Below, piece after piece: positions 10,780 to 18,424 of a stretch of 64,000 bases of DNA (positions are counted from its first letter, which is position 1; each line of letters opens with the position of its first letter). A program made the translations under genes and the position numbers. Source of the stretch: Rhodoluna limnophila (GTDB lineage Bacteria; Actinomycetota; Actinomycetes; Actinomycetales; Microbacteriaceae); contig CAMCXL010000007.1 in assembly GCA_945883505.1 (NCBI GenBank), forward strand, positions 1 to 64,000, given 5' to 3'. The notes beneath the pieces were generated by a model. That model saw only the letters and a list, made by a program, of their open reading frames with translations. It had not been told where the DNA came from and did no database searches.

Positions 10780-12168
10780 CTACGGGGTGAGAACTAGTCT
10801 TACGCGCCGAACGTTCAGACCGGGTCTTGGATCTTCAATGCCTTGAGAAACCGAGGATTCAATCTCGGGTCTTTCGCTTTCGGAGTATGAACAAGCTGTC
10901 TTTCCACGGTTAGTGGAAAGAGCAACATCTGTTGTTCTTCGAGGCAAAGAGGTGAACCCGGTGCAGGTGAGGGTTGACAGGTCCGAATGCTTGGCTAGCC
11001 ACTTGTCGATACGAGCCTTCATGCGAGGAGTTAAGACCCTGGAGTTGTGTGCGAAGCCGCCAACTATAAGGGTTGCCTTACGGGTTCCGGCAGCCGCAAC
11101 TTTTCCCATAGTGAAGTGCTTCGGAAGAATTAGTGTCCCCAAAGGCGACTTGAGTTCTACATCAAGCTCGCCGGATAAGCCAATCGGCATGCGAATGTCG
11201 ATGCGGTTCTCAGTTTTGGACAATATTTCAACTTTCAGTCCACCAACGAATGCCTCAGTGATGCCACCAAAGTGTGCACCGAACATCGCTACAGACTGTC
11301 CCGGAGCAGGAGTCTGATTTAGTGTTTGGACATGCTGCTTGACCGGCGCTGGAGCAGATCCTGAGCTTGCAGGAGCTGGAGGCGACACCGCTGCAGGTGC
11401 AGAAATCGGACCAGACGCGTCCTGCCAGGCCACTCCGCTTGTGCTGAAGTCAAACTCTTGGCTACCGGTGGAATTAAGAATTCCCATCTTTATAGTCAAG
11501 GAGCTTGTAGTCAGAAAGTTGATCTGCACACGGGCTTCTCCATGGGAATGAACGGGGTTAGACCCACTAATCGTGGTACTGGCACCAGTAGCGTTGGCGG
11601 TGAACCTAACCGTGTTGTTGCCGAGGTTGACAACTGAATTGACAATTGTGTTTGAAGTTAACTGATAGTTATCAACATTGGAGACCTGAACAAACTGTCT
11701 GTTGTCGATGTCGTATGCGTTCAGTCTCAAACCTGAAAGTTCAACCCTGGTGGTATTATTTGAGACATCCGTACTTTCAAAATCTATACGGAACCCATTT
11801 ACCGTGTAGTCGCCGTCTGGTGTTCCAGATTTCCTCTTAATGTCAGAGCGAATCCAGACATCTTCTGAAGCAACCGTATTTGGCTCATCGTCAATTTTAT
11901 CGGTGACGTCATTATGGCTGTTAGTCAATTCAATAACCGTAACCACCGCGTCCACTCCATTAATCACATCTCGGTAAGTGTGTGAGGATCCAACAGGAGC
12001 ATCTTCCAGAATGTCGATTCCGTCATTTCCGAAATCTAAACCGATAGATGCGTCGATCGGAGTGGCTTTCGCTGAATCCGCCATCGGCACCAGCAGGGCA
12101 AGAGCGATACCCACTGTGACCAAAACGGACAAATACTTTCGAAAGTCTGAGTTTGCTTTTCTGTGCAT
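10780..12168 (-). CDS. Secreted surface protein with OmpA-like C-terminal domain
   Basis: I do not recognise the whole protein. With the ATG at 12168 (AAGGA ribosome site at good spacing) it has 462 residues. The signal peptide has a basic start, the hydrophobic stretch LVTVGIALALLVPMA and a likely cleavage after ADSAKA. A beta-rich region rich in N, T and V follows. After a proline/alanine linker (SAPAPVKQ) comes an IPT/TIG-like beta domain (PGQSVAMFGAHFGGITEAFVGG). The last 90 residues resemble the OmpA peptidoglycan-binding fold (RIDKWLAKHSDL, CTGFTS, LSTNRGKTACSY). It is probably exported and bound to the cell wall. A strong hairpin follows. Confidence 0.7.
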   Translation of the reverse strand: MHRKANSDFRKYLSVLVTVGIALALLVPMADSAKATPIDASIGLDFGNDGIDILEDAPVGSSHTYRDVINGVDAVVTVIELTNSHNDVTDKIDDEPNTVASEDVWIRSDIKRKSGTPDGDYTVNGFRIDFESTDVSNNTTRVELSGLRLNAYDIDNRQFVQVSNVDNYQLTSNTIVNSVVNLGNNTVRFTANATGASTTISGSNPVHSHGEARVQINFLTTSSLTIKMGILNSTGSQEFDFSTSGVAWQDASGPISAPAAVSPPAPASSGSAPAPVKQHVQTLNQTPAPGQSVAMFGAHFGGITEAFVGGLKVEILSKTENRIDIRMPIGLSGELDVELKSPLGTLILPKHFTMGKVAAAGTRKATLIVGGFAHNSRVLTPRMKARIDKWLAKHSDLSTLTCTGFTSLPRRTTDVALSTNRGKTACSYSESERPEIESSVSQGIEDPRPGLNVRRVRLVLTP

Positions 12169-12322
12169 TATTAAAGTCCTTATTAGTTCGTTGGAACGTA
12201 TAAGGCGAAGATAACAAGGGGCAAACTTCTGAAAACTAAAACCTTCGGTGAGACTCTGAAATCGAGACAAAACCAGTGGATAACCGAAGATTCAAGGTCT
12301 TTGGTGGGCTCTCCTAGTCTCG

Positions 12323-14116: not shown

Positions 14117-15091
14117 TTACTTCTTTAGAGCAACCTTCTGGCTTGGGAAAGCAGCGTTCCACTTGCGAGCAAGTGTGTTGTACTTCTTCTTGGTGACAGA
14201 TGTAGCCTTTGGACGTGACTCAGCTAGCTGAGCAGTTAGGGCTGCAACCTGTGCGGTTAGTGCTGTGTTGGCTGAAGCTACTGCTGGGCTGTTAACAATA
14301 TAGACCTTAGGTGAGCCGTGCTTTGGAAGACCGGTGATGTCAGATCCCCCTTGGTCGATGCTAATTGTGAACGGGTTGCTGGTTGAAGACGTAATGTCTG
14401 CATAGTTCAACTTTCTGAGTGAATCCCAGGTTGCCGCAAAAGTTTCGCCTGTGGAAAGAGTTACTGTTGTAACTCCAGCATTAGATTCACGAACGTTACC
14501 AAAAGCGTCAATGACATTGAACGTTACTTCCGCCTCAGCAAGTGGAGCAAGTGTAGAAGGCACCACTACGTCCTTAACATTGTATGCAAGTCCTACTCCC
14601 ATCTTGATGTACTTAGTAGCCGATGTGGTTGACTTAGTACCAGAGGCAGTCTTTGTCACATCGATGGTGTACGAACCAGCAGTGGTAGAAGTTGTGTACA
14701 CGTAAAGAGTCTGACTGGTTCCCGAAGTTAGAGTTTTGGTGATTTCGGAACTTCCAACTTTTGAGATATCAATCAGAGCGTTGGCAGTTGTGACTACTGA
14801 ATCGATGACCTTTACAGCACCGGTGGTAGTGACCTTAACTGTGTCGCCAGCTGCAATTGAGGTAACGGTGATTCTCTGGGCAGTAGCGGTTACGGTTGTA
14901 TCACCAGCTCCAGGAGCAATGGTGTTGACCGTAGATGCCGCGAGTACATAAGGATCTGCTGACGTTCCAGTTGTGTCTGTGTCGTGACCAGCATAGGCAA
15001 TTGACGGGGTCGCACTTGCTGGCGCAACGCCAACTAGTGCAGATAGAGCTAGTGCGGTTGCTGAAGCAACTGCAATTAGTTTCTTAGACAT
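14117..15091 (-). CDS. Secreted threonine-rich surface protein, unknown function
   Basis: Not a recognised family. It has 324 residues. A clear signal peptide (basic MSKK, then AVASATALALSALVGVAPASA) has an AXA cleavage site. The mature part is rich in T, S, A and V and looks all-beta, like the strands of S-layer or fibre proteins. A segment with VVPSTLAPLAEAEVTFNVIDAFGNV resembles bacterial Ig-like repeats. Near the C-terminus a short heptad-like helix (LTAQVAALTAQLAE) leads to a basic tail KKYNTLARKWNAAFPSQK. It lies downstream of the membrane-anchored sigma factor gene in the same direction and ends at a strong terminator. Confidence 0.7.
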   Translation of the reverse strand: MSKKLIAVASATALALSALVGVAPASATPSIAYAGHDTDTTGTSADPYVLAASTVNTIAPGAGDTTVTATAQRITVTSIAAGDTVKVTTTGAVKVIDSVVTTANALIDISKVGSSEITKTLTSGTSQTLYVYTTSTTAGSYTIDVTKTASGTKSTTSATKYIKMGVGLAYNVKDVVVPSTLAPLAEAEVTFNVIDAFGNVRESNAGVTTVTLSTGETFAATWDSLRKLNYADITSSTSNPFTISIDQGGSDITGLPKHGSPKVYIVNSPAVASANTALTAQVAALTAQLAESRPKATSVTKKKYNTLARKWNAAFPSQKVALKK

Positions 15092-15140: not shown

Positions 15141-15455
15141 GGAGCTAATCCTCAATCTGGCCAACCAAGTAGGCCAGCCCAAAGATGTCGCTCATTGAAT
15201 AGTAGCGGAAGAATGTCCGGACTATTACGGTAACAGACCAGACTTTTTAGACTTTTCTGGCCGGATTTCTCCTGATTTAGAGGCAAAATTCCTTGAATTT
15301 GGCCCATCAGGCCCGAAATGTTCCTAAATGCACCCAAATCCCCCCAGAAACCAGGGCTTCTTCTCCGCTGGGGTTCAAATGGACCCTACTGGGCGAAAGT
15401 GGCTGGAATTAGGGGCAACTAAGCCCTTTGGTGTGCCGGACTTCTGGCTTGAAGG
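15141..15455. other. Long intergenic stretch with no supported gene
   Basis: This is most of the only gap over 300 bp in the window, between the sigma factor gene and the surface protein gene. The only open frames (for example 15152-15337 minus) lack coding character. A small inverted repeat (CTGGCC/GGCCAG, 15157-15177) lies next to the palindrome. I found no convincing housekeeping -35/-10 pair, which leaves room for an alternative-sigma promoter. No RNA family was recognised. Confidence 0.5.
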
Positions 15456-16988
15456 TTATTTGGCCGAATTCAGGGAAAGAGTGATCTCTTTGACGTCAGA
15501 TCCGTTTTTCTCCATGACGACCTCGATGATGAATCGGGCGTTTCTGGTCACGGTTTCTGACCATCTCTTGCCTGTGTCGTCGTATAGGAAAGGAGCCTGG
15601 GCTGAGTAGATAAAGAGGTCAAGACCCTCGTTGGTCTTACCCTTCAAGATTCCAGCATCAATCGGTGAGAAGGTGAACTTCTGGTTGGAAACATTGATCT
15701 CGCCCCATACGGCAAAGAAAGCTCGCTCAGCTGTTGGGTTAAAGGTAAACCTCGCTGTTAGGCCGTTTTCTCCGACTACTTTGTAGTCCTGATCCAATAC
15801 AAAGATCTGTGATCTTGAGTCAGCGTCCATTACTCCGCCAAGGCTTGGCTCAGCTAGAACTTTCTCAATCGCACTCGTTTTAGGAGCGGGAGCTGGTTTG
15901 TTAGAACCAGAAGGGGTACTTGAACTCGATGAAGCACCAGCACCAGCTTGGTTGGTAGCGGATTCGTCCTTGACGACTCCGCGATCTGGTGTTGGAAGGA
16001 CATCGAGTTCAATCTCTTCGCCGTTTTGGCCGGCTTGGCTTGCTTCGTCAGTCTGGCCAGAAGCATCCGGGCTAACTTCAGAGCTAGCCGGTGCTTCTGC
16101 CATCTGATCTACTGGTGGTCTGGTAAGACCTGGGAAAGCTGTGAAGGACATTACAACCAAAGCAATAAGTGTCAGCGCAGCAGCACCGACCTTCTTGCCT
16201 TCTGATGCTGCCTTGCGGGCAGCGACAGAAAGGATGGCTGCTGCTGACATGCCGGTTGTGTCGATGTCGCCAATGAGGGCCTTCTTGAAGGCAGCGCGGG
16301 CGCGGAAGATAAGTTGACGGGTGGCGTTTTCGGAAAGTCCAACCTGAGCTGCGATCTGCTCGGTGGTCTTTTCCTCATACATCGAGGCAATAAGGACTTC
16401 TCTGTGTCTTGGGTTGAGCTTAGAAAGAGCAAGTCTTACAACAGCTGCGTCATCTTGCTGCTCTAGGGCGCTTGATACCTCAGGGTCTTCTGATGCGGGC
16501 TCCTGAACATCATCAATTGAGTTGATGTATGCCCGGCCCGATGCTCTGATGACATCAAGGGCTAGGAGCCTGGTCTTCCACTTCAAAAACCTTAGGACTC
16601 CGATCTCGGAGTCTAGTTCTGGCAAGGAAACCATCAAATATAGAAATGCATCCTGAACTACCTCGTCCACCTGAGAGGGATTGTTTAGGAACCTTCTGGC
16701 GTGACGCTCTAGGTGAGGACGGAAGCGAAGGTAAATAGAAGAGAAATCCTGTGCTGACCACTCGGCCAGCTTGACTGGCTTGCCAGATCTTTCCTTGAGC
16801 TGCAGATCACCGAATTCTTCATCGGATTGCTCATCAAGTAATGCCTCGAGAGGGTCTTCGGAGTAAAGCTTGCTGGCTTCCAGTTCTGAGATGGCAGCTT
16901 CTGATATGTCAGCTTCTGAAATAGCCCCAGGCGCAGAAGGTGAAGCTGCCTGGGCAGCTTTTTCCTTGCCTTTTTTGCTAAATGCCAT
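15456..16988 (-). CDS. Membrane-anchored ECF-type sigma factor with extracytoplasmic domain
   Basis: A 510-residue one-piece protein. Residues 1-80 are an acidic, alanine-rich leader. Residues 81-150 look like sigma region 2 (RFLNNPSQVDEVVQDAFLYL, then ALDVIRAS). Residues 183-240 look like region 4 (KLNPRHREVLIASMYEEKTT, then IAAQVGLSENATRQLIFRAR). Residues 268-287 form one transmembrane helix (GAAALTLIALVVMSFTAF). A Ser/Pro/Ala/Glu linker (about 290-375) leads to a beta-rich domain (375-510) expected outside the cell. The start has AGG at six bases. No separate anti-sigma gene is present. It probably controls envelope genes, perhaps by release from the membrane (inference). Confidence 0.85.
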   Translation of the reverse strand: MAFSKKGKEKAAQAASPSAPGAISEADISEAAISELEASKLYSEDPLEALLDEQSDEEFGDLQLKERSGKPVKLAEWSAQDFSSIYLRFRPHLERHARRFLNNPSQVDEVVQDAFLYLMVSLPELDSEIGVLRFLKWKTRLLALDVIRASGRAYINSIDDVQEPASEDPEVSSALEQQDDAAVVRLALSKLNPRHREVLIASMYEEKTTEQIAAQVGLSENATRQLIFRARAAFKKALIGDIDTTGMSAAAILSVAARKAASEGKKVGAAALTLIALVVMSFTAFPGLTRPPVDQMAEAPASSEVSPDASGQTDEASQAGQNGEEIELDVLPTPDRGVVKDESATNQAGAGASSSSSTPSGSNKPAPAPKTSAIEKVLAEPSLGGVMDADSRSQIFVLDQDYKVVGENGLTARFTFNPTAERAFFAVWGEINVSNQKFTFSPIDAGILKGKTNEGLDLFIYSAQAPFLYDDTGKRWSETVTRNARFIIEVVMEKNGSDVKEITLSLNSAK

Positions 16989-17077
16989 GGGTTACCTATG
17001 TCTAGTTTGCCAGATACTTCTTATAACGTCACCTGGGGCCTATTTGTTATGGTCAGCGGGCAAGGTGTCCTCTCGCC

Positions 17078-17131: not shown

Positions 17132-18424
17132 ATGAAGCCCATCAAAGTTGTATTTCTAGGACTTTACTTCGAGTCCTGGGATGCCCTGGACGAGATCTAC
17201 CAAAAGATGGTCAAGGACCCCCGCTTTGAACCGGTTGTTGTCTCCATGCCCAGAAAGCTAACTGGGCAACTGGCCTATGCCCAAGAAGACAAGTCCCATG
17301 ACTTCTTTGAATCCCGTGGGATACCCCATGTTCGTCTAAACACCGGTGGTTCGGGAAGCCAAAACCAAGATGGGCTGAAGGTCTTGAAGGATCTTGCACC
17401 GGACTATGTGTTTGTGAACTACCCGTGGCAAAGAAACTACCAACCGGCGGTTCGTTTCGACCAGCTGGCCGATTTCACACGTCTTGCCTACGTGCCTTAT
17501 TTCTCACTGGTCATGGTCGATGAACCAGATGACGAGCCAGGTGGTGGCCAAGCGGGTTCCTTGGTTGCAACACACATCTATAAACAGCGACTCCACCAAC
17601 TTGCATCACTTATCTTTACCCAAGACAAGAATGTCTTGGAAGCCTATGGACAAACCGAACGAGGTAATTCCTACGTTCACTTCCTTGGTTCACCCAAGAT
17701 AGATGCTTTGCGCAAAGATGCCCTCGAAGGCAAGGCAAGTTGGCCAATAAAGGGTTCTGGATACAGGGTGGTGTGGGCACCACACCACTCCTATTCCCCT
17801 CATTGGCTCAACTTCGGTGTCTTTGCCAGAATCAAAGATCAGATGCTGGATTTTGCTAAGCAAAATCCAGACATCCAGATTGTTTTGCGTCCACACCCAT
17901 TCCTCTGGGGAACACTCACCGATCGAAAAGTAGTTTCAGAGCAAGAATTGAGCACTTGGCGAAGTGCGTGGGACGAGTTAGATAACACATCTGTTGACGA
18001 AGATGGCTCTTACGCTGAACTGTTTCTTGCAACTGATGTTCTTGTGACAGATGGAATCTCTTTCTTGGGTGAGTACCCATTGATTGCAGGCAAGCCAACT
18101 GTCTTTTTCGAAAACGATGGTCACTGGCAGTTCACCGCAACAGGTGAACTTGCTGCAAATGCATCGGTAAGGGTGAAAAGCTTTGCTGAACTTGAAAAGG
18201 CAATTCACGATTCAAGAGCAAATGGAGTTCCTGATCGATCTTCAGAGATTCAAAAACTAATCGAAGCTAGCTCGCCATATCCTGGTGAGTCAGCTGCCAA
18301 GATCATCGAGCAAGTCTTTGAAGATTTTGCGGGGCCCGAAGGGCCCTCGCCTCTGGTTGATAAAACCAAACTCAAAGAGCTGCCCTGGGAGTTGGTCCCA
18401 GGACGCGAACCCTTCGAGGACTAA
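17132..18424 (+). CDS. CDP-glycerol glycerophosphotransferase-like (TagB/TagF-type) protein
   Basis: A GT-B-like transferase of 430 residues. The N-terminal half starts KVVFLGLYFESWDALDEIY. The C-terminal half has the features of the glycerophosphotransferase family: VVWAPHHSYSPHWL, VLRPHPFLWGTL and the nucleotide-side block LVTDGISFLGEYPLIAGKPTVFF. It probably transfers an alcohol phosphate or sugar to a cell-wall polymer, but the substrate cannot be told, and a teichoic-acid role is not proven. The ATG has TAGGTT six bases upstream, so it is likely leaderless. It is divergent from the sigma factor gene and converges with the DUF3048 lipoprotein gene. Confidence 0.6.
   Translation: MKPIKVVFLGLYFESWDALDEIYQKMVKDPRFEPVVVSMPRKLTGQLAYAQEDKSHDFFESRGIPHVRLNTGGSGSQNQDGLKVLKDLAPDYVFVNYPWQRNYQPAVRFDQLADFTRLAYVPYFSLVMVDEPDDEPGGGQAGSLVATHIYKQRLHQLASLIFTQDKNVLEAYGQTERGNSYVHFLGSPKIDALRKDALEGKASWPIKGSGYRVVWAPHHSYSPHWLNFGVFARIKDQMLDFAKQNPDIQIVLRPHPFLWGTLTDRKVVSEQELSTWRSAWDELDNTSVDEDGSYAELFLATDVLVTDGISFLGEYPLIAGKPTVFFENDGHWQFTATGELAANASVRVKSFAELEKAIHDSRANGVPDRSSEIQKLIEASSPYPGESAAKIIEQVFEDFAGPEGPSPLVDKTKLKELPWELVPGREPFED

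Follow-up and report, generated by a model that had tools for sequence, protein, structure and literature searches.

Domain architecture of the fusion protein

We analyzed a window of 64,000 nucleotides from a contig of Rhodoluna limnophila (GenBank assembly GCA_945883505.1). Its minus strand carries an open reading frame of 510 codons, free of internal stops, that joins the two core regions of a sigma factor to a membrane helix and an extracellular domain. The parts of this fusion gene, its predicted promoters and the neighboring genes are collected in Table 1.

Table 1. Features of the fusion sigma locus in window coordinates
Feature	Position	Strand	Basis or remark
Fusion sigma gene, 510 aa plus stop	15456..16988	minus	ORF, Pfam, NCBIfam, aligned relatives
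N-terminal extension, residues 1-77, with acidic box 44-61	16758..16988	minus	Box in 19/23 rows
Sigma region 2, residues 79-156	16521..16754	minus	Pfam; 78% mean pairwise identity
Sigma region 4, residues 176-240	16269..16463	minus	Pfam; 75% mean pairwise identity
Juxtamembrane segment, residues 241-264, GMSAAAILSVAARKAA	16197..16268	minus	66% mean pairwise identity
Transmembrane helix, residues 266-289, N terminus inside	16122..16193	minus	Hydropathy and charge
Low-complexity extracellular linker, residues 290-365	15894..16121	minus	Composition, pLDDT
Beta ectodomain, residues 366-510	15459..15893	minus	Structure model; 23% mean pairwise identity
Predicted own promoter, CCATAACAA-N15-CGTTAT, 34 nt before ATG	17023..17052	minus	Shared upstream motif
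Predicted promoter of secreted-protein gene, CCGTAATAG...CGCTA, 111 nt before ATG, contains TCCGGAC	15203..15230	minus	12/13, 0/200 shuffles
Secreted protein, 324 aa, predicted target	14117..15091	minus	ORF; no Pfam family above cut-off
CDP-glycerol glycerophosphotransferase-like gene, neighbor of the fusion gene	17132-18424		

A Pfam scan of the fusion protein placed Sigma70_r2 at residues 86 to 152 (E = 7e-9) and Sigma70_r4_2 at residues 184 to 233 (E = 2e-11), both above the cut-off, and the NCBIfam model sigma70-ECF scored 82.4 bits against a cut-off of 42.9. Regions 2 and 4 are separated by 18 to 21 residues in 23 aligned rows, a short linker replacing region 3 as in ECF sigma factors. 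The protein from the window has one hydrophobic stretch (residues 266 to 289), with four lysines or arginines in the 15 residues before the core and one in the 15 residues after it. A single membrane stretch was found in 22 of the 23 rows; L048 has a second hydrophobic stretch, inside the linker, and the two overlapping windows of L033 represent one helix. Serine, threonine, proline, alanine, glycine, asparagine and glutamine make up 66% of residues 286 to 365, and residues 284 to 367 have a pLDDT below 50 in the full-length model, as befits a disordered linker. The N-terminal 77 residues carry a net charge of -8 and include an acidic box of the EDPLExLLDEESDEEFG type, which is recognizable in the rows counted in Table 1.

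The original prediction had described this design as a one-protein fusion of sigma regions 2 and 4 with one transmembrane helix, a low-complexity linker and a beta-rich ectodomain, and it is confirmed by Pfam, hydropathy, the structure model and the aligned relatives. The acidic N terminus of about 80 residues is present as foreseen, and the ectodomain, put at about 135 residues, measures 145 with nine predicted strands. A read error or stop codon between region 4 and the helix was looked for and none was found. The fusion is uninterrupted in the 12 rows of alignment A1 and in the 23 rows of alignment A2 (both count the window protein), which rules out a read error or a chance fusion. Pfam detected no anti-sigma domain in the seven neighboring proteins scanned at the locus, so the expected absence of a separate anti-sigma gene holds for these seven, and the fusion protein itself gave no Pfam match to a FecR-type or a zinc-finger domain. 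Judged by its sequence, the fusion protein is a one-protein transmembrane ECF-type sigma factor.

Distribution among relatives

Beyond the window protein, 22 relatives in the Rhodoluna/Aquiluna (Luna-1) lineage of Microbacteriaceae could be aligned along the whole fusion; excluded from this alignment (A2) were L056, a broken copy from Aquiluna M30B12, and three loci truncated at contig ends (L049, L052 and L055). The full fusion was present in 12 of 59 related genomes (the window's own counted), every one of the same genus. Named records assign the family to Rhodoluna and Aquiluna; among the 49 loci compared, L031 to L056 belong to the fusion family, whereas L057 to L079 represent distant sigma factors. 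In the genus survey, 20 of 67 genomes gave a match at E of 0.001 or better and 18 of the 67 have the fusion; the weak matches of G080 and G088 come from short sigma factors and were hence not counted. Among well-assembled genomes of the genus, 10 of 22 carry the fusion and about half are without it. One of the carriers of an orthologue is G006. A survey of 199 Microbacteriaceae genomes returned strong full-length matches in nine, five in the same genus and four in a second one, and 41 other, weak matches. We take the second genus to be Aquiluna because its loci resemble those of the named records. In Aquiluna sp. M30B12 (L056:5932-7581), the fusion gene is split into several frames, as are some of its neighbors; a sequencing fault is possible.

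Conservation and the ectodomain

Over the 23 rows, mean pairwise identity was 78% in region 2, 75% in region 4, 66% in the juxtamembrane segment, 41% in the helix, 18% in the linker and 23% in the ectodomain. In the alignment, the juxtamembrane segment is thus held almost as tightly as the sigma part, and six of its residues are invariant in all 23 rows. This is the position near which many ECF sigma factors end: most of 57 distant sigma ORFs have a tail shorter than 40 residues. Because the sigma part is the most conserved portion and a conserved ECF-type promoter lies upstream of the gene (see below), we argue that the protein is probably a functional sigma factor. The acidic box and the juxtamembrane segment are candidates for keeping the sigma part inactive. 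The full-length model, with a pTM of 0.31, is not readable as to masking of the sigma part by the juxtamembrane helix or the acidic box.

The model of residues 366 to 510 has a mean pLDDT of 85.9 and a pTM of 0.79. Among the folded parts, the ectodomain varies most, with a minimum pairwise identity of 6% and no invariant residue in 19 rows, and its length ranges from 140 to 157 residues. A Foldseek search with the ectodomain gave nothing at E of 0.001 or better (best E, 0.03), and a profile search of PDB sequences reached a best E of 2.4. With VIA, the highest Z, 5.6, was obtained for mycobacterial LpqH (7fds; rmsd 3.6 over 95 aligned residues), which falls in the range rated as a common arrangement. 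None of the 19 ectodomains scored above the cut-off of any Pfam family, carbohydrate-binding families included. The ectodomain had been described as unfamiliar, and these fold and Pfam searches bear this out, having given neither a confident PDB match nor a family above the cut-off. The lack of a confident fold match is no proof of a new fold.

DUF5643 is a domain that accompanies DUF4179 proteins, whose genes neighbor ECF genes in Firmicutes. Of the 19 ectodomains, that of the window is the single one to match it (PF18705), and only weakly (E = 0.0007 when scanned by itself, 20 bits against a cut-off of 34). Fold searches with the full-length model returned sigma factors only.

Predicted promoter of the fusion gene

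An ECF-type motif, CCRTAAYAA-N14/15-CGTWWA, precedes the fusion gene in 25 of 25 upstream regions, each matching at least 13 of 15 positions; this count is in-sample, as the motif was derived from the same regions and many of them are related. In the shuffle control, a score of 13 was reached in 8 of 500 cases and a score of 14 in none. The spacer is 14 nt long in 20 cases, 15 in four and 13 in one. A strict motif scan of 67 genomes offers a more independent view, albeit a partly circular one as sites at the gene itself are counted: it yielded 14 hits, 10 directly before a fusion gene and four elsewhere, with 11 in the reversed control. All 10 strict CCGTAAYAA sites in the 67 genomes precede a fusion gene, and the other four hits are without the exact -35 element. 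The distance from the end of the -10 box to the ATG is 9 to 11 nt in the Aquiluna loci, which suggests a nearly leaderless message. Another conserved element, TCTGSCAAACT-like, follows the ECF-type promoter and precedes the start codon at 17003-17014 of the window and in other Rhodoluna loci; it may be a housekeeping -10 region.

The downstream gene for a secreted protein

In most relatives, the gene behind the fusion encodes a signal-peptide protein of about 800 to 1,000 residues, and several loci hold a tandem second copy of this long surface-type gene. In 12 of 12 aligned long proteins, the mature part is devoid of cysteine and consists of threonine, alanine, valine and glycine to 43 to 57%. 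Pfam gave weak matches below the cut-off only, Ig-like among them. By its composition, signal peptide and these weak matches, the downstream product looks like a surface-layer or adhesin protein.

We searched the gap from the fusion gene to the next same-strand gene within 400 nt in 28 loci. A site matching at least 11 of 13 positions was found in all 20 loci with a secreted-protein gene in the next position, against 0 of the 7 with another gene or none, in a test with a threshold fixed post hoc, a simple start-codon rule, several close relatives and one locus (L053) scored as secreted by length and C terminus. In the remaining locus, L036, which stops short of the next gene, a site of 12 is present. 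In the 20 loci, the score was 13 in eight, 12 in eight and 11 in four. An exact search for the downstream-type pattern in 10 genomes returned seven matches, all at the fusion locus and one of them the window's own. The pattern of the window's downstream site has no second match in the 1.22-Mb genome at up to one mismatch.

The long surface protein (E under 1e-50) was detected in 14 of 18 genomes with the fusion versus 2 of 49 without it (Fisher's exact test, p = 3e-9); as 11 of the 14 genomes contributed rows to the profile and the genomes are related, only its scarcity in the 49, many of them incomplete, is informative. The window's own genome is among the four fusion genomes without a match, its downstream protein being shorter and of another kind. 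In G178, about 78 kb separate the fusion gene from the surface gene, and the latter is preceded by TCGTAATGTCCGAACAGTATGTCCGTTA, which matches 11 of 13 positions and shares 27 of 31 letters with the linked site of G101; four more sites of 11 of 13 occur within the same 4.1 kb, so the score alone is not rare. No good site was found before the surface-like gene of G235. Coevolution of the ectodomain with the surface protein found no support in the 13 loci with a long surface protein (partial Mantel r = 0.07, p = 0.28).

Some other features of these loci were recorded. At 14 of 23 sites of the secreted-protein promoter, the spacer contains TCCGGAC (window 15215-15221) or a one-letter variant, in many cases with a mirroring GTCCG at the -10 box, and a second regulator may bind this palindrome. 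Between tandem surface-protein genes, an opposite-strand gene for a product of about 235 to 250 residues is found at L142:10042-10752, with similar genes in L140, L141, L143, L040, L047 and L224; the L142 product has a LuxR-type DNA-binding domain and could be that second regulator. Just before the fusion gene of G017, four secreted-type ORFs are present (L141:6421-10874), three with a similar lysine-rich tail; the related G059 is without them there.

Extent of the predicted regulon

Nine of the 10 sites found in six genomes at up to one mismatch are at the fusion locus or within 6 kb of it. We found no sign of a wider regulon at up to two mismatches in the six genomes (46 hits versus 122 in the reversed control) or with the second pattern at up to one mismatch in 10 genomes (17 versus 65). 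Since these hits fall below the reversed control, only near-exact sites at the locus carry weight, and with few good sites elsewhere, the regulon looks tiny.

A site before the CDP-glycerol glycerophosphotransferase-like gene scored 12 of 13 in three of nine loci, 11 of 13 in two and 9 of 13 in four, the window included, with scores of 11 being reached by 7 and 8.5% of shuffles. The sites of 12 are at L140:10527-10554, L142:5405-5432 and L143:10739-10766, and are absent in the window. Elsewhere in the window, positions 10780-12270 (minus strand) encode a secreted-looking protein of 496 residues with no Pfam match.

Sigma region 2 matches numbered four in the window genome, three in G006, four in G017 and two in G029, which is without the fusion. 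Each of these genomes has one gene for an M50 site-2 protease; as G029 has one too, the protease is not specific to the fusion.

Comparison with known membrane-bound sigma factors

ECF groups with a fused C-terminal membrane segment had been said to be known, and excerpts of two papers bear this out: ECF48, ECF52 and ECF53 are such fusions in Actinobacteria, and IutY is a further case (PMC8999054, PMC5826349). With the three actinobacterial groups, the fusion family has in common the C-terminal membrane helix and the extracellular part; however, ECF48, ECF52 and ECF53 carry a zinc-finger anti-sigma domain before the membrane, where the fusion family has a short conserved segment free of cysteine. 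A zinc domain of the ECF52 kind is ruled out in the family by the absence of cysteine at residues 241 to 289 in 23 of 23 rows and of a Pfam zinc finger. ECF52 has a proline-rich region and a carbohydrate-binding domain, whereas the fusion family has what appears to be a different, beta ectodomain. Two of the 57 distant sigma ORFs (L016 and L167) have a membrane stretch behind region 4, both with a preceding HxxxCxxC, as in the ECF52 type. For SCO4117, the ECF52 member of Streptomyces coelicolor, the same excerpts give positive autoregulation as suggested or likely and propose release by proteolysis (PMC8999054, PMC5826349).

The closest solved sigma factor by sequence is SigL of Mycobacterium tuberculosis (E = 5e-6 over residues 84 to 233), and its complex with RslA (3hug) was among the fold-search matches of the full-length model. 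SigL is a separate soluble protein with its own anti-sigma factor, RslA. IutY resembles the fusion protein in uniting a sigma factor and a membrane-bound regulator in a single polypeptide, and bears a FecR-type domain. It differs in belonging to Gram-negative cell surface signaling, which involves iron and an outer-membrane receptor; for the fusion protein, no partner of this kind was seen, and the host lineage is of the Gram-positive type, without an outer membrane. IutY of Pseudomonas putida (ECF243) is freed by Prc and RseP cleavage, as stated in an excerpt of PMC8999054. Our literature search, with most subscription journals outside its scope, found no description of the fusion protein.

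Proposed mechanism and alternative readings

What the sequences themselves show is the architecture, its conservation, the promoter-like sites and the way these sites go together with the secreted-protein gene. The model that we build on them, to which we give about an even chance, is that of a membrane-anchored ECF sigma factor that does the job of its own anti-sigma factor, is released by proteolysis and drives its own gene and a surface gene. In this model, cytosolic regions 2 and 4 would bind RNA polymerase and read the dedicated promoter CCRTAAYAA-N14/15-CGTWWA, and the C-terminal half would span the membrane with a single helix, from which a flexible linker would extend to the small beta domain on the outer side. 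In the resting state, the membrane would retain the sigma part, and the acidic box and the juxtamembrane helix, itself conserved, may mask it as well. When the ectodomain senses a change at the surface, cleavage would follow outside and then, by a site-2 protease, inside the membrane, which would free the sigma part. Once free, it would transcribe its own gene, giving positive feedback, together with the neighboring gene, which encodes a secreted surface-type protein; the CDP-glycerol glycerophosphotransferase-like gene is perhaps a further target in some relatives. For polymerase binding, promoter use, the signal, cleavage and masking, we infer these steps; release by proteolysis in particular is carried over by analogy from IutY, for which it was shown, and ECF52, for which it was proposed.

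The main alternative is a permanently tethered sigma factor. The original prediction had named this option beside direct sensing with proteolytic release, and the sequence by itself fits either; the promoter and the secreted-protein target go beyond that prediction. One-component regulators such as ToxR and CadC act from the membrane, and the fusion protein could likewise sense the surface through its ectodomain and work unreleased on two or three promoters, mostly beside its gene. It would recruit polymerase in the membrane, its own gene being drawn there while the fusion protein and the secreted product are made. The local position of near-exact sites (9 of 10 in six genomes) and of exact second-pattern sites (7 of 7 in ten) fits this reading, as does the lack of an anti-sigma-like zinc domain to mask the sigma part, so that the membrane itself may be the restraint. 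We nevertheless judge it unlikely: the target gene of G178, at a distance of about 78 kb, keeps a similar site, and among the studied proteins of this design, release was shown for IutY and proposed for SCO4117 (PMC8999054, PMC5826349). If it were true, this would be a one-component transmembrane sigma factor, and a surface protein would be made where and when the coat needs it.

Less is asked of the outside domain if it is a mere anchor or wall-binding piece that passes no signal, with the protein level, set through its own promoter, determining activity and the acidic box or juxtamembrane helix tuning it. The low identity of the ectodomain (mean 23%, minimum 6%) and the absence of any invariant position in 19 rows are not what a conserved ligand site would show and point that way, and so does the acidic box kept in 19 of 23 rows. 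Yet fast-changing sensor domains are common, the length of the ectodomain is kept (140 to 157 residues) and a single fold is predicted with good confidence; we consider the anchor quite improbable. The promoter-like sites could also belong to another sigma factor or regulator, with the fusion protein as a target rather than the driver. The window genome has other sigma genes, with four region 2 matches in all, and the TCCGGAC palindrome in some downstream sites could bind another regulator. A conserved dedicated promoter before an ECF gene, however, usually means autoregulation, and the strict CCGTAAYAA sites, all 10 of them before a fusion gene in a partly circular count, speak against another driver, which we regard as a distant prospect.

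Implications for the Luna-1 lineage

What is new in this family is the replacement of the zinc domain by a conserved short segment, an ectodomain that lacks a confident match, a candidate promoter, a secreted protein as predicted target, and its occurrence in a streamlined genome. The number of sigma factors retained by streamlined aquatic bacteria is very small. Pontimonas salivibrio, a relative, has two, as given in an excerpt of PMC6106888. The Luna-1 lineage has an additional sigma factor, in which sensing and promoter recognition would be united in one molecule; it comes with a candidate promoter, and its regulon, apparently tiny, seems to be directed at the cell surface. Rhodoluna lacicola MWH-Ta8 is a naturally transformable laboratory strain. 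Gene inactivation works in it, as an excerpt of PMC11577799 reports. Whether a fused sigma factor acts after being cut free or from within the membrane thus becomes directly testable in a small, simple system, where a single molecule may combine sensing of the cell surface with control over what is placed on it.
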